From: Sphingobacteriales bacterium 44-15
Lineage (GTDB): Bacteria; Bacteroidota; Bacteroidia; Chitinophagales; Chitinophagaceae
Length of the DNA stretch: 64,000 nucleotides
Direction of reading: 5' to 3'
Assembly: GCA_001899685.1 (NCBI GenBank)
Contig: MKWG01000003.1
Coordinates: forward strand, 372,001-436,000
Below the pieces are notes generated by a model. It was not told the origin of the DNA and did not search any database. It was given only the letters and a program-made list of their open reading frames with translations. How positions within the stretch are numbered: the first letter of the stretch is position 1; each line of letters opens with the position of its first letter. The position numbers were made by a program, and so were the translations under genes. Below are positions 23,087 to 30,813 of the stretch, piece by piece.

Positions 23087-23491
23087 TTACGGCATAGCGT
23101 AATACCTGAATAAATAATACATTGCCCATCCGGCAAATCCTATGATGAGTATCCATACCCATGCAGGAATGCTCTGGGGTGTTTCACTACCTTCTATCAT
23201 GAACGATTTCTGATCACCTTTTCCATAGGCATTGATCATCAGGGGAAGCACACCGTCCACTACGGCATTTTCTTTAATACCTTCCACAGCGATTGCGGGA
23301 CCATTCCGCACGATGAAGGGTATCGTGCGGATACCTTCCTTCCCAGCAGGATCCCTGCTCACTATCTTTAAGGTATGCTCGCCATCAGTAAGCTTCCGGG
23401 TGTCCAGCTCAAAGCTTACCGGGGAGAGGACTTCCGCCACAGGTTTCGTGTCTTCATCAATGAAAATAAATATGGTACTTTTATCACTCAT
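23087..23491 (-). CDS. membrane-anchored beta-sandwich protein of the cbb3 cluster, 134 aa
   Basis: About 105 residues of beta-rich, immunoglobulin-like sequence (FIDEDTKPVAEVLSPVSFELDTRKLTDGEHTLKIVSRDPAGKEG) end in one C-terminal membrane helix (about 108-130, WVWILIIGFAGWAMYYLF). There is no signal peptide, so the N-terminal domain orientation is uncertain. It is the last gene of the oxidase cluster, 1 nt after the stop of 23493-23771, and is read with it. Similar small proteins accompany cytochrome oxidase genes in Bacteroidota, often annotated loosely as cytochrome c; no haem-binding CXXCH is present, so that name would be wrong. Confidence 0.6.
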   Translation of the reverse strand: MSDKSTIFIFIDEDTKPVAEVLSPVSFELDTRKLTDGEHTLKIVSRDPAGKEGIRTIPFIVRNGPAIAVEGIKENAVVDGVLPLMINAYGKGDQKSFMIEGSETPQSIPAWVWILIIGFAGWAMYYLFRYYAMP

Positions 23492-23492
23492 G

Positions 23493-23771
23493 TTACTGAT
23501 TATTTAAAATCATCCTTTTAATATGAGCATCAGATTTCTCTCCGGGGCGTATGATCCATTTTACGGAGAAAAACAGGGTGAGCAGCACTATCGCAACGGT
23601 TATCCAAACGATCAGGTAGTCCCACCGGCTTTCCGGGCCGGCGCCATGGGTAATGCTTTTCAGCACCGAAGGCTGGTTCCGGTCACATACCGGGCAGGCT
23701 ACTGCGGGTATAGCTGCACACAGGGACAGCAATATACCGGACACTTTTTTTCTTATATGTTTTGCTTTCAT
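23493..23771 (-). CDS. CPVC-motif membrane protein of the cbb3 cluster, 92 aa
   Basis: A signal peptide or N-terminal helix (about 10-24) is followed by CPVC (residues 26-29), a conserved-looking stretch KSITHGAGPESRWDYLIVW and one membrane helix (about 50-69), then a basic cytoplasmic tail. The Cys pair directly after the export signal could bind a metal (copper delivery to the oxidase is a natural idea) or form a disulfide. It lies between the cytochrome c subunit gene and the beta-sandwich gene on the same strand. I do not recognise a named family. Confidence 0.65.
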   Translation of the reverse strand: MKAKHIRKKVSGILLSLCAAIPAVACPVCDRNQPSVLKSITHGAGPESRWDYLIVWITVAIVLLTLFFSVKWIIRPGEKSDAHIKRMILNNQ

Positions 23772-23878: not shown

Positions 23879-24874
23879 TCATTTGGCCGCTTTCAGCTTT
23901 ACCGCATCTATGATCTTTTTAATTTCTTCCGGCGTTACCGTTTTTGCCTCATTTCCCCAGCTTGTTCTTTCATGATTTATGATAGCAGCCACTTCATTTT
24001 CGGTAAATCCCATATTGGTACCTATAGGAGGCATTGCTCCATACCCCGGCCGTGCATCATACCCGTTCATGATAATATCTACATACAGTTCAAGGTTGTC
24101 TCCGGTTACTACCGGACTTCCTTTCAGTGGCGGAAAGGCGCCTGGCAGTCCTTCCCCGTTAGCCTGGTGACAGGCCTGGCAGTTGGCAGCAAATAATGCC
24201 TGCCCGTCCGGAGCGGCATTTGTTGCATTTGCAGCTTCCTTCTTATCCTCACGCTTATATAAAAAGCCAGGTGCTTCAGGTAGTTTGGTTTGTTTGAGCG
24301 ACTGCAGGTAAGCAAGTAAATATAATGCGTCTTGCGTAGCTACTATTTTATCATCTTTCGACTTCAGGTATTCCGCCGGCACATTTACCACTACGTCACT
24401 TTTTGAGGGCTCTTTCTTTGCAGTGAACAGCCAGGGATATGCAGGCATTACCGATTCTTTTACCACAATACGGGGATTATACAGGTGCACCAGGTTCCAG
24501 TCCTTTGAAGGCTGGCGGGTACCTATATCCGTGAGGTCAGGTCCTGTGCGTTCCGTGCCCATAAGGGTAGCGGTATTACGCCAGAAATCAGTGCGGGTAA
24601 TGCCGGCATAATCTGCTGCAACGCTGGGGCGGCTTCCCCACACTTTATCCATATCCACATTTCTCACCTGCTGGGTATGGCAGGCCACACAACCATTGGC
24701 CACGAATACAGCTTTCCCTTTGGTCGCCTCGGTACTTAATGGCACTGCTCCCGGCAACGGCCGGTTATCCTCCTGGTTCCGGATCGCCGGGAGTATGGCC
24801 ACCATAATGGTCAGCCCTACAAACATCAGCGTGGCAGTACCAAACAGCTTTCTATGATCATCAAATAATTCCAT
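23879..24874 (-). CDS. cbb3-type oxidase cytochrome c subunit, CcoO fused to a second cytochrome c domain, 331 aa
   Basis: One N-terminal membrane anchor (about 13-31), then a CcoO-like monohaem domain with Cys62, Cys65, His66 in GCVACHTQQVRN, followed by RTDFWRN, GPDLTDIG and the MPAYPWLF phrase of CcoO. A linker leads to a second cytochrome c domain with Cys232, Cys235, His236 (CQACHQANGEG) and a Met-containing GAMPPIG loop. It therefore combines roles of CcoO and a CcoP-like electron entry. In standard operons these are separate genes. It begins 18 nt after ccoN on the same strand and should pass electrons from periplasmic cytochrome c to CcoN. Confidence 0.9.
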   Translation of the reverse strand: MELFDDHRKLFGTATLMFVGLTIMVAILPAIRNQEDNRPLPGAVPLSTEATKGKAVFVANGCVACHTQQVRNVDMDKVWGSRPSVAADYAGITRTDFWRNTATLMGTERTGPDLTDIGTRQPSKDWNLVHLYNPRIVVKESVMPAYPWLFTAKKEPSKSDVVVNVPAEYLKSKDDKIVATQDALYLLAYLQSLKQTKLPEAPGFLYKREDKKEAANATNAAPDGQALFAANCQACHQANGEGLPGAFPPLKGSPVVTGDNLELYVDIIMNGYDARPGYGAMPPIGTNMGFTENEVAAIINHERTSWGNEAKTVTPEEIKKIIDAVKLKAAK

Positions 24875-24892: not shown

Positions 24893-27040
24893 TTAAGCAA
24901 TAGGGGTGGCGCTCTTTTCCAGTTGCTGAATAGCGGCTTCTCTTATATCCAGCGCTTCTTTTCCCGCGATCATTTTATACATGTTATATGCGAAGAACAG
25001 ATGGGAAAGCCACATCAGGCTCCCGCCGATAGCACGCCACAACCAATAAGGAGCCATCTGCACCACGCCTTCTATAAAGGGCTTTCCGCTCATCCACAAC
25101 AAACCCTTGAGCGTGCCGCCATACATCAGTGGTATGGAGTAAAACATCAGTCCTATCAAAGCCAGCCAGAAATGCGCACCTACCGTGATCTGGGGCGGCT
25201 CTTTACCGGTAAGCCTCGGCACTACCGCATAAATGCATGCCCAGAGAAAAAAACAGATGATACCATACATGGTAAGATGAGAATGGGCTACCGTAAAATC
25301 CGTGAAATGCCATATCAGGTTCGTAAACCGGAATGCTTCGGCAGTACCCTGCATCGACCCGGTAAAATAGAAAATGATCCCTACCAGGAAAAAAGGCAGC
25401 GTATAGCTGTCGCTGACCTTGTACCAGGCGCCTTTGAATGTCATCAGGAAATTGGTGGTACCTGCAATTACCGGGATGGCCATACCCATACTTCCCACAA
25501 TGGCTACTGTTTGCAGCCACCAGGGAATAGCGCTGAAGACAAAATGATGAGAGCCGATCAGCGTATAAAACAGGATCTGTGTCCAGAAAGCCAGTATACC
25601 CAGGCTATAGGAATATATAGGCTTATTCAACTGCTGCGGAAGAAAATAATATACGATGCCCAGCGTAAACAGCATAAACCACATACCTACCCCCTGGTGC
25701 ATATAATATCCCTGGATAATGGTCTCCCCCAGCCCGTTTTGCCAACTGGGTATATAGGCTGCGAGCGCAATAACAATAGTGAAGATAATGGCAGCTACCA
25801 TATACCAGTTGGATATATATATTTCCCTGGTGGTACGGGCAGCAATAGTTTTTATATAATTATAAAGACTAAGCGCAAGCCCTATACCAAACAACAGCAT
25901 TACCGGCCAAACATACTCGCGATATTCTCCTCCCGCGTTGTTGATGCCTGCCATAAGACATATACTGCCTATAATAACGGAAGCATTGATCAGGTAAAGC
26001 GCATACCAGCCCATCTTTATGCTGAACAATTTAGTATTGCTCACCCGCGGCACAATATAATATCCCAAACCAAGCATGCCTAATGATGCCCAGCCCCAGA
26101 ATACAGAGTTGGTATGAACAGGGCGGAGCCTTCCAAAGCTCAGCCAGCTTACATGATCCGCATCAGGAGCAACAAACTTGATGCCTATATATTCGCCTAT
26201 GGTTGTTCCCAGCAGGAGCCAACATGTAGCACAGCCCAGGTACCAAAGCACCAGCCTTGACAACGACGGATCAATATTCGGTCTCGGAAGGGCTTTCTTT
26301 TTTACAGCAACTATCGGCACTCCCGCCTCCCGGTTTATATTCAGCAAACCTTTACTATCCTCCGCCGGTTCATTTCCCGAAAGCTCACGGTGTGTAAGGG
26401 AATAATCCAGCGCTGCTTTTCTTTTTCTTAATATCGTATCTACTTCCTCATCGGGTAAGTTTTGCAGGTATATTGCAAGCTTTTCGGCTTCTTCGCGGCG
26501 CAACCGGTTCCGCTGCTGGTTCATGGCATTCCTGATCTTGACAATAAGAATGGTAAGCGCAGCCAGTATAGGTATTAATACCAGCACAATAGTAATGATA
26601 ATGCCACTCTCGCTTAATAATGACCCGCTCTCTGTACCCGGAGCTGCCTGGGCTGTGGCAGTACTAACGGCAAGAAAAATAAAAACAGGTATCAATAAAA
26701 TAACAGAGTGCATGCCTCCCTGTATTTTTTTATTTTTATATCGCAGCAATCTCTCTATCTGCCGGCTGTTGAGCTGTAAAGTATGTTCCTTAAGTATGTT
26801 CTCCCTCTGCCTGTCATCCATTTTTCTATAATTTTTTCTCAGGGCGGCTACTTTATTTTTGAGCGCAAATGCAGCCGCAAGCAATGCGAATGCTATGATA
26901 AATATGAGCCATATTCCCGCTTTGGTTGAGCTAAAAGAAAAATGGGAAACCTTCATGTTTTGTGCCTGTGCAGCAGAAAAGCGCAACAGCCAGGGCGTGA
27001 TCAGCAGGATCCGGGCTGAAAAAAAAATAAACGATTTCAT
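24893..27040 (-). CDS. ccoN: cbb3-type cytochrome c oxidase subunit I with a ~250-aa N-terminal extension, 715 aa
   Basis: The catalytic part (about 255-700) carries the full CcoN set: low-spin haem His309 (RPVHTN) and His588, high-spin haem His586 (VAHSHLTMYG), CuB ligands His448, His498, His499 and the cross-link Tyr492. Spacing of His448, Tyr492 and His498 (44 and 6 residues) matches what I recall for CcoN, and separates it from NO reductase NorB. The first ~250 residues are unusual: a signal-like or membrane segment, a second at 43-60, a third at 110-130, a fourth at 147-168, with charged coiled regions between (RQRENILKEHTLQLNSRQIERLL). The promoter at 27143-27187 carries a palindromic operator. 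Confidence 0.92.
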   Translation of the reverse strand: MKSFIFFSARILLITPWLLRFSAAQAQNMKVSHFSFSSTKAGIWLIFIIAFALLAAAFALKNKVAALRKNYRKMDDRQRENILKEHTLQLNSRQIERLLRYKNKKIQGGMHSVILLIPVFIFLAVSTATAQAAPGTESGSLLSESGIIITIVLVLIPILAALTILIVKIRNAMNQQRNRLRREEAEKLAIYLQNLPDEEVDTILRKRKAALDYSLTHRELSGNEPAEDSKGLLNINREAGVPIVAVKKKALPRPNIDPSLSRLVLWYLGCATCWLLLGTTIGEYIGIKFVAPDADHVSWLSFGRLRPVHTNSVFWGWASLGMLGLGYYIVPRVSNTKLFSIKMGWYALYLINASVIIGSICLMAGINNAGGEYREYVWPVMLLFGIGLALSLYNYIKTIAARTTREIYISNWYMVAAIIFTIVIALAAYIPSWQNGLGETIIQGYYMHQGVGMWFMLFTLGIVYYFLPQQLNKPIYSYSLGILAFWTQILFYTLIGSHHFVFSAIPWWLQTVAIVGSMGMAIPVIAGTTNFLMTFKGAWYKVSDSYTLPFFLVGIIFYFTGSMQGTAEAFRFTNLIWHFTDFTVAHSHLTMYGIICFFLWACIYAVVPRLTGKEPPQITVGAHFWLALIGLMFYSIPLMYGGTLKGLLWMSGKPFIEGVVQMAPYWLWRAIGGSLMWLSHLFFAYNMYKMIAGKEALDIREAAIQQLEKSATPIA

Positions 27041-27142
27041 ATTAAGGATATAAATACCTTTTTATCTTTTTTAAAACAAAAGTTCATATGGCAAGTACCT
27101 GGCAAAACTGTATATCGCAGAGGCTCGTTTTGGTCAGCAGCA

Positions 27143-27187
27143 CAAAGCTACCAATTATTAAATCAATAAAAGACAAAAACATCTTTT
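27143..27187 (-). promoter_or_regulatory. promoter of ccoN with palindromic operator over the -33 box
   Basis: On the minus strand TAGCTTTG (27150-27143) is a -7 box and TTTG (27177-27174) a -33 box, 23 nt apart. The -33 box lies inside the 20-nt imperfect palindrome at 27168-27187 (on the plus strand AAAAGACAAAAACATCTTTT, arms AAAAGA/TCTTTT). The same palindrome type and promoter geometry occur upstream of the RIC gene (30747-30789). Confidence 0.6.
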
Positions 27188-27251
27188 ATTTTTTGACATA
27201 TTCAGATTTGCTTCGATGCCAGAGCAGCTTTAACTATCTATTTTTTCTCTC

Positions 27252-27578
27252 TCAAACTCCTAATTGCGCTCTTCCTTCTTCCGTCAGCATTTCAAAGCTC
27301 CATGGTGGGTCAAAAGTCAGGTTAATGTCTGCTTTCTTTCCGGGGAACGTCATTTCCAAAGCATTCTTCACTCCGTTGGTGATCGCTTCGCCCATAGGGC
27401 AATGGGGCGTGGAGAGGGTCATTGTTACAGAAATGCTGTCATCATCTCCGAATGCTATTTCATATATCAGTCCAAGATCTACCACATTTACAAAAAGCTC
27501 AGGATCTATTACATTATAGAGCGCCTGCTGCGCTTTAAGCTTTTCATTGGAGTATGGTTCTGTTAAGGAAATGATCAT
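27252..27578 (-). CDS. DUF59/MIP18-family metal-sulfur assembly factor, 108 aa
   Basis: The start at 27578 overlaps the stop of the upstream gene by 4 nt (ATGA), which fixes it against a longer frame. The protein shows the DUF59 pattern: YNVIDPELFVNVVDLGLIYEIAFGDDDSISVTMTLSTPHCPMGEAITNGV with the single Cys in HCPMG, and DPPWSFEMLTEEGRAQLG at the end. Members such as PaaD, SufT and MIP18 support iron-sulfur cluster assembly. Its coupling to an NnrS-like protein and next to RIC suggests a role in repairing or building metal centres under nitrosative or low-oxygen stress. Confidence 0.87.
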   Translation of the reverse strand: MIISLTEPYSNEKLKAQQALYNVIDPELFVNVVDLGLIYEIAFGDDDSISVTMTLSTPHCPMGEAITNGVKNALEMTFPGKKADINLTFDPPWSFEMLTEEGRAQLGV

Positions 27579-28843
27579 GATAATATTTTTGTTTTGTGCA
27601 ACAATACCTTCATCACATTTACAAAATACAACGTTGACAATATAAGCCACAGGCCTGACGCTATGCGAAAAACAATAACGTTATTCATCAGTATGGCAGT
27701 AGCAAGGAAAAGCAGCGCGATAATAAATATCCTGAACTGCCACTGCACCATCGGTTCACTGTACAGGTGCTTGGGCAGGGGCACTTTCACTTTCCCGGAG
27801 AGGGATTTGTAATGTCCGTTCCACACAATAAAAGGCAGCGTCTTAAAGGTTTTTCCAAGAATGATCCCCGTTATCCAACCCATGAATGCGAAAGTTCCGT
27901 ATAAGACAGTCCAGTGATACCCCCGGGCATTGACTACAACAGGTATCATAGCGATAGCAACGGCCAGGCACAACAACGCAACAAATGTCTGCTTCATCTG
28001 TATATCTGTTTTTTTTCTCACACGGTTGCGGAAAGTGTCATAAAGGTACAGGAACCAGCACACTACGCCTGCGGCTACCAATGCGGCATATAGCAGTATC
28101 CTGGCGGAGGTGATACTTCCAAAATAGCTTTCCGTTAAAAATAAAAGCAATCCTGCATTCTGCAACACACAGGCATACAGCAGCAATTTCTCTTTGGCTG
28201 ATTTTCCCAGCAGGAACATAGGCACCAGCTTACTGCTCACTCCCGTTATCAATTGCAGGAACCAGCCTGCCAGTCCGGCATGCGCATGGAGCTTCAATAT
28301 ATCCAGGTGGTTTTTCGTGAAAAAAGGATAGCTGAGATTGATCGTCATGAGCAGCCCGACTGTTACGGTGAACATAAGCCAGGTAGCAGAAGTAACAATG
28401 AACAGCCTGACAACAGAGTAATGACGGCATATCCTGCTTGTGAGCAGCGCATTGATGAAATAGGTCAGCGCGGAAAAAACCACAAGCGACCCTCCGCTTA
28501 TCATAAGCCACCCCGTTGTAAAAGTCCAGAATGAAAACACAAGGATAGCTGTGCCTCCCGTAAGGGTATACCAGCACAGGGAAGCAATAACAGGGCTGAA
28601 CAGATCGCGTTCACAAACAACAGGTAATAACTGGTGTGCGGCTCCGAAAATGATCATCGTTCCCCAGCCCAGCGCCGCCGTATGCACAATGGCCAGCAAA
28701 TGCGGGTTGAAATAATGCTGGCTCAAGGCGTCAGTGCTGATAAACAATAAAAAGCAAAGTATCCAAAAAGCACCGGCGCCCGTTGCATAAAACGGGAGCA
28801 CGGCGCTATTGGGAGGGGCTTTTCCTATATCAATGTCAGCCAT
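27575..28843 (-). CDS. NnrS-like / haem-copper-oxidase-related membrane protein, 422 aa
   Basis: About twelve membrane helices fill the sequence. Two His motifs resemble haem ligands of the NnrS and CcoN-like groups: AIVHTAALGWGTMIIFGAAHQLLPV (about 50-75) and LKLHAHAGLAGWFLQLITGVSSKLVPMF (about 183-211). The CuB ligand set of true oxidases is not seen, so catalytic oxygen reduction is unlikely. NnrS proteins relieve nitric-oxide stress; that role would fit its neighbours (DUF59, DUF2249, RIC), with which it forms a tight operon (4-nt overlap downstream, 9 nt upstream). Confidence 0.75.
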   Translation of the reverse strand: MADIDIGKAPPNSAVLPFYATGAGAFWILCFLLFISTDALSQHYFNPHLLAIVHTAALGWGTMIIFGAAHQLLPVVCERDLFSPVIASLCWYTLTGGTAILVFSFWTFTTGWLMISGGSLVVFSALTYFINALLTSRICRHYSVVRLFIVTSATWLMFTVTVGLLMTINLSYPFFTKNHLDILKLHAHAGLAGWFLQLITGVSSKLVPMFLLGKSAKEKLLLYACVLQNAGLLLFLTESYFGSITSARILLYAALVAAGVVCWFLYLYDTFRNRVRKKTDIQMKQTFVALLCLAVAIAMIPVVVNARGYHWTVLYGTFAFMGWITGIILGKTFKTLPFIVWNGHYKSLSGKVKVPLPKHLYSEPMVQWQFRIFIIALLFLATAILMNNVIVFRIASGLWLILSTLYFVNVMKVLLHKTKILS

Positions 28844-28852
28844 GAATGAATA

Positions 28853-29716
28853 TTACCGTGGTTCAGAAGTTGTATATGGTTTTTCAAATAAAATCATTTT
28901 TACATCCCCCTCGCCTATTGTATGAATATGTATCTCATAATGCTTATCCGCCAGCTCTTCCAGCAGGTATACCGGCACACGCTTGTGATGCACATATAAC
29001 ATGTGATCCCGTGGCAATGTTTTCAGTTCGTTCAGGATAGTATGCATGGGCTGGGGCATTTCTAAATGGCGAACATCTGCTTCCCGTATTTTTTCGCCGG
29101 GGAAATGTTGACGCACCGCTTCGAAACTACCGGCATCATCAAAGATAACATTGTCATGACTGCTCTCTTTTTCTTCCTCAGCGGCATTTTTTCTTTTCAG
29201 AAAATAGGTCAGGAATTCCTCTTCGCTGATCTTATCTACATAACTGCTTTCCGCTTTTCCCTGTTGCAATAAATGGATCAATGGCGTAGGTACAAAGCTG
29301 TTGATTACACAAAGTATTTTTCCCTCAGGAACATTTTTGAATTTGCCGAGTATCTCTTTCAGCGGATCCGTGCCGGATTCAATAACGGGGCGCACGTCCA
29401 GCCAAGTAATATCCGCCCGCCCTGCATCCAGCAGCCATCCGGGTTTAGGCTGCTGTGCTGTCTCTTTCGGTTGCATTACCTGTTCATATTCAAAACCGAG
29501 GGGCGTCAAAGCTGCTACAATATCACTTACGCTGCAACCGCCCATCTTTGCTGCTTCGGCTATAGTGACCCGTGCGGCCATTATTTTCCTGAGCACCGGA
29601 TTTCTCAAGCGATGAAAAGGCTTTGCTACTCCGGCAATTGCCTCAATGGAAGCCTTATCTGCTTTGATAAGCTCTGATATTTTAGTGGTATCGCTTATTT
29701 TAAACGGTTTGTCCAT
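28853..29716 (-). CDS. DUF1858 plus two DUF2249 domains, 287 aa
   Basis: The N-terminus (about 1-75) is DUF1858-like: ISDTTKISELIKADKASIEAI, PVLRKIMAARVTIAEAAKMGGCSVSDIVAAL. Two DUF2249 domains follow: WLDVRPVIESGTDPLKEILGKFKNVPEGKILCVINSFVPTPLIHLL (about 105-155) and HLEMPQPMHTILNELKTLPRDHMLYVHHKRVPVYLLEELADKHYEI (about 218-265). DUF2249 shares a fold with TusA-like sulfur carriers and appears with hemerythrin and NO-response genes. Its function here is unknown. It lies 9 nt upstream of the NnrS-like gene and 43 nt downstream of the RIC gene, all minus strand. Confidence 0.8.
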   Translation of the reverse strand: MDKPFKISDTTKISELIKADKASIEAIAGVAKPFHRLRNPVLRKIMAARVTIAEAAKMGGCSVSDIVAALTPLGFEYEQVMQPKETAQQPKPGWLLDAGRADITWLDVRPVIESGTDPLKEILGKFKNVPEGKILCVINSFVPTPLIHLLQQGKAESSYVDKISEEEFLTYFLKRKNAAEEEKESSHDNVIFDDAGSFEAVRQHFPGEKIREADVRHLEMPQPMHTILNELKTLPRDHMLYVHHKRVPVYLLEELADKHYEIHIHTIGEGDVKMILFEKPYTTSEPR

Positions 29717-29759
29717 GGCGAATCATTTTGATCTATCAGATGGATAGACGACTTCTGGT

Positions 29760-30713
29760 TCATTGTACATTTTCCCGCTCCGGCGCAATTGCCCTGGGGA
29801 AGAGAATATTATTTTCGACATGCAGACATTGCTGAAGATCATCTTCCATTTCCGCCAGCTTTTGATACAGGTAAGCGTATGAGTTGCAGGCGTCATCCGG
29901 CAGCTCATAATCATTGCTCAGCTTCCGGAAATATGCCAGGTCTGCCGCTATGATACTATGTTCCTTCTCCAGCACCAATACTGATTTCTTTATGATGCCC
30001 GCTTCATCAGGTATTGCTCCGGTAGCCGGACTTTTCCCAGATACACGCTGCTTGATCGCCGGGAAAACGATCTCTTCTTCTTTGCCAATATGTGTCAGCA
30101 GGTTTTGCAGAAAAGGAATTACGCCTTGAGCCAGCCTGTTTAACTCAGGGTGATAAACGCCGTGCCTTTGTGCAACCTTTTCTGCCAAACCGCTGATCAG
30201 TTCTGCATTCTCCTTTATATAACGGTGGTGCGTATTGCTGATATAATCACAAAGAAAATCAAGCTTCCATTTATTAAAGTCCTGGGAAGCGGAACGGGGC
30301 AGTTGTTCTGCATCTGCCAGCTCAGCTTTCAATGCTTCTTCACTGATAGCAGCTTCCGCCACTGCTTCCTGCAATGTTTTATTACCTCCGCAACTGTAAT
30401 CAATCCCCCTGGCTTTAAATACTGCAGCTTTACGCATGTCCTTTGCTGCTATCGATCCGATAGTCTCCCCATTATTGTCATTGGAGCGCTTGGCAATTTT
30501 TACCTGCCAGCGCTGAGGGCCCTGCTGAAGATATTCCCATGTAAAAATATTCCCACGCTCCCCTAAAAGCTGGTAGTACAATGGCTTGGGGTCATGGTCA
30601 TTATCTATGATAAAGTTTTCGCCCGCATCTAACTCATCAAAGTGCTTAAAAATAGTAGGATGTTTGAGCTTCGGCTCTATACGGGTAACATCCAGAATTG
30701 CTACTGCTACCAT
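29760..30713 (-). CDS. RIC/ScdA-type iron-sulfur repair protein with N-terminal DUF2249, 317 aa
   Basis: Three parts: a DUF2249 domain (about 1-78, ILDVTRIEPKLKHPTIFKHFDELDAGENFIIDNDHDPKPLYYQLL), a ScdA_N/DUF542 domain (about 86-150, GSIAAKDMRKAAVFKARGIDYSCGGNKTLQEA with the key Cys), and a hemerythrin-like four-helix domain (about 165-310) with His/Glu di-iron ligand motifs THHRYIKEN, HPEL, HIGKEEEIVFP, KEHSII and HVENNILFPR. RIC proteins restore iron-sulfur clusters damaged by NO or oxidation. The extra DUF2249 is a feature of Bacteroidota versions. It is first in the operon and is preceded by the operator at 30770-30789. Confidence 0.88.
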   Translation of the reverse strand: MVAVAILDVTRIEPKLKHPTIFKHFDELDAGENFIIDNDHDPKPLYYQLLGERGNIFTWEYLQQGPQRWQVKIAKRSNDNNGETIGSIAAKDMRKAAVFKARGIDYSCGGNKTLQEAVAEAAISEEALKAELADAEQLPRSASQDFNKWKLDFLCDYISNTHHRYIKENAELISGLAEKVAQRHGVYHPELNRLAQGVIPFLQNLLTHIGKEEEIVFPAIKQRVSGKSPATGAIPDEAGIIKKSVLVLEKEHSIIAADLAYFRKLSNDYELPDDACNSYAYLYQKLAEMEDDLQQCLHVENNILFPRAIAPERENVQ

Positions 30714-30746
30714 GTTCTTTATTTTATGAATGTTTTAATGCAGCAG

Positions 30747-30789
30747 CAAAATTACAGGACAATTCAAATAAAGGACAAATTTGTCTTTT
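30747..30789 (-). promoter_or_regulatory. promoter of the RIC operon with palindromic operator over the -33 box
   Basis: On the minus strand TAATTTTG (30754-30747) is the -7 box and TTTG (30779-30776) the -33 box, 21 nt apart. The 20-nt palindrome at 30770-30789 contains the perfect 12-nt core GACAAATTTGTC and covers the -33 box. About 22 of 27 positions, including the flanking TCTTTTATTTTTT, match the site upstream of ccoN, which has the same layout. Confidence 0.65.
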
Positions 30790-30799
30790 ATTTTTTTAG

Positions 30800-30813
30800 A
30801 TGATTTAAATCAT
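30800..30813. promoter_or_regulatory. perfect 14-nt palindrome, FNR-like site
   Basis: ATGATTTAAATCAT is fully symmetric and differs from the FNR consensus TTGATNNNNATCAA only at the outer positions. Its centre is about 64 nt upstream of the predicted RIC start point, a typical distance for an activator of the Crp/Fnr family. Binding is inferred. Confidence 0.45.

Follow-up and report, generated by a model that had tools for sequence, protein, structure and literature searches.

Two copies of a 26-bp palindrome, AATAAARGAYnnnnnnRTCYTTTATT, are present in the window analysed here, a stretch of 64,000 nt from the Chitinophagaceae member Sphingobacteriales bacterium 44-15 (contig MKWG01000003.1). 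One copy is located upstream of an operon starting with a ccoN-like gene, which encodes a cbb3-like heme-copper oxidase, and the other upstream of an operon starting with the gene for the iron-sulphur (Fe-S) repair protein RIC. Both palindromes are probably operators of a single, autoregulated Rrf2-family Fe-S repressor, NsrR-like in role, which would be released from the DNA by nitric oxide (NO). Judged from sequence, this regulator/operator system is very probably conserved in many Bacteroidota, and is likely to be NO-sensing.

The operator and its promoters

Operator 1 (27165..27190; AATAAAAGAC AAAAAC ATCTTTTATT), upstream of the ccoN-like operon, and operator 2 (30767..30792; AATAAAGGAC AAATTT GTCTTTTATT), upstream of the RIC operon, both match the 26-mer exactly, and the palindrome covers the full extent of both sites, which is longer than first noted. 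The two sites share 22 of 27 positions, at the places and to the extent reported in the initial annotation of the window, and 21 of 26 over the full palindrome, with self-complementarity at 24/26 positions for the RIC palindrome and 18/26 for the ccoN palindrome. The perfect 12-nt core described earlier (GACAAATTTGTC) is indeed present, but the informative and conserved part of the operator consists of the outer arms AATAAAAGA/TCTTTTATT, the middle of the core being merely A/T in the position matrix.

Each operator is followed on the minus strand by a predicted -7 box, located at 27143..27150 for the ccoN promoter (TAGCTTTG, 14 nt from operator 1) and at 30747..30754 for the RIC promoter (TAATTTTG, 12 nt from operator 2). 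The TTTG and TAnnTTTG boxes are 23 nt apart in the ccoN promoter (27177-27174 and 27150-27143) and 21 nt apart in the RIC promoter (30779-30776 and 30754-30747), in agreement with the 21-23 nt previously given. The TAnnTTTG sequence is described as the -7 box of flavobacterial sigma-A promoters, located at -12 to -5 (PMC9723704), and the operators would therefore be positioned at approximately -50 to -25. The -33 TTTG had been placed within the palindrome, which is correct for both window sites, but this overlap is not conserved, as TTTG is found at the same place in 9/45 orthologous promoters.

In the whole genome (6.0 Mb, 46 contigs), the 26-mer was detected three times when up to one mismatch was allowed, with all three matches being exact and no matches for the control. 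These copies are located before the ccoN-like gene, before the RIC operon and, outside the window, before an Rrf2 gene. The many random copies that the initial annotation had named as speaking against a shared operator were not found in this genome, at either zero or one mismatch. Looser patterns were rejected as a definition of the operator, since they cannot separate sites from chance as the full 26-mer at 0-1 mismatch can: at ≤3 mismatches the 26-mer gave 19 genome matches versus 22 for its control, and a loose 20-mer core gave 351 versus 341 for the reversed control. Six more candidate places in the genome (L025-L030) were also discarded, being inside or beside genes without a visible link to NO. 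A looser 20-mer that is as frequent as its control would be expected if the two sites were a chance resemblance in AT-rich intergenic DNA, but this explanation is already refuted by the rarity of the 26-mer, the conservation of the operator in other genomes and the scores of the learned motif described below, and retains next to no probability.

Relatives of the ccoN-like protein were selected by protein similarity only, using the best 80 of 335 confirmed; the best was 82% identical, and the closest in the named collection were Chitinophagaceae and Bacteroidetes records. When a motif was sought de novo in 64 Rrf2 upstream regions taken from other genomes, the result was again this palindrome (AATAAAAGATAAAAATGTCTTTTATT), with a log-likelihood ratio of 850.5 (best of 80 starts), compared with 83.0, 97.7 and 87.3 in three sets with shuffled bases (best of 30 starts for each). 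The window sites were absent from this training set, and on the 64-kb window the learned motif was strong only at 27165 and 30767 (25.9 to 33.0 bits), scoring 25.9/30.9 bits for operator 1 and 31.9/33.0 bits for operator 2, with the next match at 5.0 bits. A second near-palindrome (AAGGATATAAATACCTTT), located at the ccoN start codon (27040-27065), reached 4.9 bits only.

A site of at least 12 bits was present in 58/64 regulator upstream regions, and was followed by a TAnnTTTG box in 46 of these 58 promoters, with the distance between operator and -7 box conserved at 9-16 nt in 45 of the 46. An Rrf2 gene was located on the same strand and at most 400 nt before ccoN in 60/80 loci, and somewhere in the locus in 64/80. 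In 66/80 loci a site of at least 15 bits was found in the stretch from 1100 nt ahead of the start of the ccoN open reading frame (ORF) to 150 nt beyond it, a count which is partly circular because many of these loci had contributed upstream regions to the training of the position matrix. The 1,373,456 bases of ccoN loci contained 86 sites of at least 15 bits, against 0, 0, 1, 1 and 1 in simulated sequence of the same length, and the first recognised gene after these sites was Rrf2 (56), ccoN (15), RIC (3), hemerythrin (2) or TM (1), with an unrecognised gene after five and none after four. Neither the 64 motif sequences nor the 80 ccoN loci are independent trials, as they come from related species. 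The earlier proposal of one regulator linking the cbb3 oxidase with NO and Fe-S repair is thus supported by the third copy before an Rrf2 gene, and by the recurrent position of Rrf2 before ccoN.

A scan of the family (146 genomes, ≤1 mismatch) gave 64 matches in 44 genomes, versus 12 in 7 genomes for the control, and a scan of the phylum (247 genomes, exact matches only) gave 18 matches in 12 genomes, versus none. Within the family, operator matches co-occurred with p134, a protein of the oxidase cluster which served as cluster marker and is present in 23/146 genomes: matches were found in 18/23 marker genomes and 26/123 others (p = 2.5e-7). The association of operator and regulator extends through the phylum.

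The Rrf2 regulator and its regulon

The third exact operator copy (C43:255195-255220) precedes a 143-aa Rrf2-family gene (C43:254723-255151), and thus provides a regulator gene of one of the two types, Crp/Fnr and Rrf2, that the initial annotation had suggested looking for. The -7 box of the rrf2 promoter is 14 nt from its operator, and the gene heads an operon encoding an SdpI-like protein, a bacterial globin, a membrane protein, another RIC and a hemerythrin-domain protein; this second RIC scored 239.8 bits, over the FeS_repair_RIC cut-off of 204.7. Protein searches identified one strong ortholog of the regulator (at least 55% identity) in each of 12 genus genomes. The protein belongs to the Rrf2 family according to PF02082 (84.6 bits, cut-off 30) and TIGR00738 (83.7 bits, cut-off 73.3), and the model of an ortholog (L084) displays the Rrf2 fold, with matches to CymR (Z 15.6), IscR (Z 15.2) and DNA-bound NsrR (Z 14.0) at an rmsd of 2.0-3.1.

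Three cysteines (Cys92, Cys99 and Cys105) are invariant in 86/86 regulator sequences, of which 5 are paralogs and 18 come from loci selected by motif, and Cys6 is found in 82/86. Glu7, which by eye we take to be placed beside the Asp8 ligand position of NsrR, is present in 81/86. The cysteine spacing is CX6CX5C, unlike the CX5CX5C of NsrR. In Streptomyces coelicolor NsrR, the cluster is held by three cysteines and Asp8 (PMC5411485). The operator also differs, as NsrR binds a 23-bp 11-1-11 site in which a single base separates two 11-bp repeats (PMC4432287), while the palindrome described here is 26 bp in length and even-centred. The regulator does resemble NsrR in its Rrf2 fold, its three invariant cysteines, its predicted autoregulation and a regulon containing flavohemoglobin, NO reductase and RIC genes, with the NO-detoxification functions typical of NsrR (hmp, qNOR, RIC and globin) all found behind the operator.

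Paralogous Rrf2 genes were observed near RIC operons as well. They are located after the HCO-like (heme-copper oxidase-like) and DUF59 genes in four congeners (L058-L061, approximately 36-40% identity), and close the run from RIC to DUF59 in L138 and L155, which amounts to more than one form of linkage between RIC operon and Rrf2 gene; in the window no Rrf2 gene follows DUF59.

Searching by motif alone identified 81 distinct operator sites (41 exact, 40 with one mismatch) in addition to the three of this genome. A regulator or cluster/nitrogen-oxide gene was located within 420 nt of 33/41 exact sites, comprising Rrf2 (12), RIC (7), qNOR-like (5), NirK (3), hemerythrin (2), globin (2), flavohemoglobin (1) and ccoN (1), with only an unrecognised gene at five of the remaining sites and none at three, and such targets were found at 19 of the 40 one-mismatch sites. 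The targets were named from their best BLAST match in a small query set, and family scans back only some of the names: flavohemoprotein (L162, L178), Sec-type NosZ at one-mismatch sites (L175, L181), the NorB cytochrome-c-like domain (L184, L202, L226, L230) and copper nitrite reductase, which was above cut-off in three of three NirK loci (L227, L229, L234). L231 and L235 were named qNOR from BLAST similarity alone, and the unrecognised targets include small c-type cytochromes (L208, L210, L237).

Other genes were also seen behind the operator. In one congener, one-mismatch operators are located before genes for similar small proteins (METQTITGMPVIGKY... and MPVVGKYKW...; L213, L214), of which the L213 protein has no Pfam match. 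Exact operators precede genes for fasciclin-domain proteins in genomes of two other families (L224, L225, L233); we know of no link between such proteins and NO.

Bacteroidota are common in soil and wastewater, and many have partial denitrification pathways. In the literature searched, nitrogen-oxide control in this phylum is represented by HcpR in Bacteroides, with Rrf2 genes noted beside nosZ, and no description of the 26-bp operator or its regulon was found among the matches listed in the open-licence literature. Rodionov et al. gave HcpR2 for Bacteroides (PMC1274295); like the system described here HcpR regulates nitrogen-oxide genes in Bacteroidota, but it is of the Crp/Fnr type and recognises another motif (GTAACnnnnGTTAC; PMC1274295). 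Rrf2 genes beside clade II nosZ were reported from Bacteroidetes fosmids (PMC6264515), and as here they are part of denitrification clusters, but the operator, the link with the oxidase and RIC, and the regulon are not described in the available text of that study. The combination of a defined operator, a regulator and a target list makes the regulon predictable from sequence, and the same list allows the cbb3-like oxidase to be tested as a defence against NO.

Mode of control and signal

We infer that the Rrf2 protein binds the operator, that it carries Fe-S clusters and that NO is its signal. A regulator dimer with intact clusters would sit at approximately -50 to -25 and block RNA polymerase, and would leave the DNA once NO damages the cluster. 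Release would then allow production of the RIC repair operon, of the globin-RIC-hemerythrin operon together with more regulator, and of a second, cbb3-like terminal oxidase which may keep respiration going. Repression with release by NO is the best supported mode of control, because of family precedent and the position of the operator.

Several observations weigh against this interpretation. Among the 23 p134-bearing genomes of the family, five lack any match at ≤1 mismatch, 12/58 regulator promoters lack a TAnnTTTG box after the site, and 14/80 ccoN loci have no site in the expected stretch. Some of these 14 are contig ends and four have a site further upstream (L082, L104, L117, L133), but several have neither a site nor a regulator gene (L142, L144, L145, L152). 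A recognised target was absent at 21/40 one-mismatch sites (12 with an unrecognised gene, 9 with none), and the NirK, NosZ and eNOR-like enzyme of this genome are encoded without operator. The remaining points concern the direction of control and the nature of the signal.

With regard to direction, an activator could work from an operator with its centre near -38 as well, and a recognisable -33 sequence is missing from most promoters, only 10/45 orthologous promoters having a TTG of any kind at 19-24 nt upstream of the -7 box. The lack of a conserved -33 box makes activation possible: the Rrf2 regulator may dock at approximately -38, replace the absent -33 box and turn the genes on once its cluster has been altered or has disappeared. 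The operator, however, shares positions with the -33 region and is found ahead of the regulator gene as well, which is the usual layout for autorepression, and we consider activation unlikely. NsrR, the NO-linked Rrf2 protein, is likewise described as a repressor (PMC2577008, PMC11500311).

With regard to the signal, the regulator reached 38.3 bits with the NsrR equivalog model, for which 182 are needed, and NO sensing is therefore proposed from the content of the regulon. All 24 orthologs match the NsrR model at E ≤ 0.001 (best 1.8e-12; two of the scores were 36.8 and 43.2 bits). The regulator is far below the cut-off of every equivalog model matched, and both RirA (51 bits) and IscR (46 of 207.55 bits) outscored NsrR, as might be expected of an Rrf2 protein that senses Fe-S status, iron or oxygen, with NO-related genes included because NO harms Fe-S clusters. 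In one genome of another genus, the gene for a NifS/IscS-like cysteine desulfurase (L161:328-1458) has a one-mismatch operator 56 nt upstream, which fits with Fe-S repair and also with sensing of Fe-S status, and a link with low oxygen is frequent among cbb3-type oxidases. The desulfurase stands alone, however, with an inexact site in a single genome, and the flavohemoglobin, qNOR, NirK and NosZ-linked genes behind the operator in other loci have nitrogen oxides in common, so that a general Fe-S, iron or oxygen sensor has a low probability, and NO remains the preferred signal.

A different regulator was also considered, as a Crp/Fnr-like palindrome (ATGATTTAAATCAT, 30800..30813) adjoins operator 2 upstream. 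This is its only exact match in the window, and an identical 14-mer is found elsewhere in the genome (L238:5753), where it adjoins a Crp/Fnr-like gene in the neighbourhood of nirK. Both nirK and nosZ have genes nearby that were judged Crp/Fnr-like by eye. A Crp/Fnr-type regulator responding to low oxygen or NO would be expected to bind TGAN6TCA, but the 26-mer lacks this sequence and has AATAAAAGA/TCTTTTATT as its arms. TGAN6TCA was found upstream in only 15/119 operator-gene pairs (control 3), and Rrf2 is the regulator gene recurrently behind the operator, which makes Crp/Fnr binding at the two operators very improbable. The adjoining ATGATTTAAATCAT is possibly the site of a second regulator for the RIC operon, acting next to the putative Rrf2 repressor.

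The oxidase and RIC operons

On the minus strand of the window, the RIC operon is followed downstream by the genes for the ccoN-like catalytic subunit (24893..27040, 715 aa, cbb3-like heme-copper; PF00115, 283 bits), CcoO (FixO) fused to a cytochrome c domain (23879..24874; PF02433, PF00034), p92 (23493..23771, 92 aa; best match of 69 ORFs in loci L076-L184) and p134 (23087..23491, 134 aa; best match of 70 ORFs in the same loci). The initial annotation named this enzyme a cbb3 oxidase, which holds in so far as it is cbb3-like, but it is divergent, and the canonical CcoNO of this genome is encoded elsewhere, without operator. The ccoN-like protein scored 249.5 bits against an equivalog cut-off of 583.15 and shares 28% identity with the canonical enzyme of this genome across an alignment of 462 positions. 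Three CuB histidines, the cross-link tyrosine and the heme histidine are kept in 80/80 relatives, while Glu323 is replaced by Gln and His243 by Ala in all 80 (Pseudomonas stutzeri numbering, read off the alignment). The enzyme therefore resembles cbb3-type cytochrome c oxidases in its catalytic residues, FixO subunit and cytochrome c, and differs in its ccoN score, the fusion of CcoO to cytochrome c and these two substitutions.

We read the ccoN-like enzyme as an oxidase made under NO, and either tolerant of NO or consuming it, since cbb3 enzymes are able to reduce NO (PMC8780969) and the extra terminal oxidase aox of Vibrio fischeri is under control of NsrR and was reported to be NO-resistant (PMC5156696, reporting Dunn et al. 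2010). Both would thus represent an extra terminal oxidase under NO control. The V. fischeri enzyme is an alternative oxidase, a di-iron type, whereas the one described here is a cbb3-like heme-copper enzyme. Replacement of the active-site tyrosine is the mark of NO reductases, but Tyr492 is kept in 80/80 relatives, which argues against a pure NO reductase.

A general role of the ccoN-like enzyme as substitute for an absent NO reductase was not supported, as qNOR was present in 3/23 marker genomes versus 12/123 without the marker (p = 0.71). NirK is enriched with the p134 marker, which was found in 7/16 NirK genomes and 16/130 others (p = 0.004), and qNOR was present in 1/16 NirK genomes. This genome encodes NirK and NosZ, as well as a heme-copper subunit I (L220:2093-3760; G000:C7) with Gln at the active-site Tyr position (GHSSQQ), adjoining a subunit II that carries a cytochrome c motif at its C-terminus, and this pair has no operator. 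According to the eNOR recognition rule given in PMC8756737, the pair is a candidate eNOR-like NO reductase, and another candidate for this function is therefore present in the genome.

In the relatives, a common order is operator - Rrf2 - ccoN - ccoO - p92 - p134 - globin - membrane protein - RIC - hemerythrin. In L082 a single operator is followed consecutively by RIC - D2249 - HCO-like - DUF59 - Rrf2 - ccoN, and in L076, the closest relative, the operator is located between DUF59 and ccoN instead of Rrf2, as in the window. A broader interpretation, which we put forward tentatively and hold to be somewhat less probable than its contrary, is that of a phylum-wide Bacteroidota NO regulon under a previously undescribed Rrf2 subfamily (CX6CX5C, 26-bp operator), with an ancestral core of the regulator and an NO-tolerant or NO-consuming cbb3-like terminal oxidase, which would be produced on demand as a defence against NO. 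The regulator would here have left the core for another contig, with the shared operator keeping the separated operons in one regulon, and the arrangement would then be an example of a gene cluster that breaks up yet stays under common control.

The RIC operon itself is encoded on the minus strand and starts with RIC (29760..30713), for which the DUF2249, ScdA_N and hemerythrin domains were above their Pfam cut-offs, and the FeS_repair_RIC model gave 192.6 bits, just under the cut-off of 204.7. The next gene encodes a DUF1858/DUF2249 protein (28853..29716), and the operon ends with a SufT-like DUF59/FeS_assembly_P gene (27252..27650; PF01883, 55 bits), of which the start codon is uncertain. 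Between these is the gene for a 422-aa membrane protein with a heme-copper-oxidase fold (27575..28843), with a weak COX1 match (25 bits, below cut-off) and a model (mean pLDDT 72) resembling subunit I of cbb3 oxidases and NO reductases (NOR; TM 0.72 to 9g6b, 10% identity).

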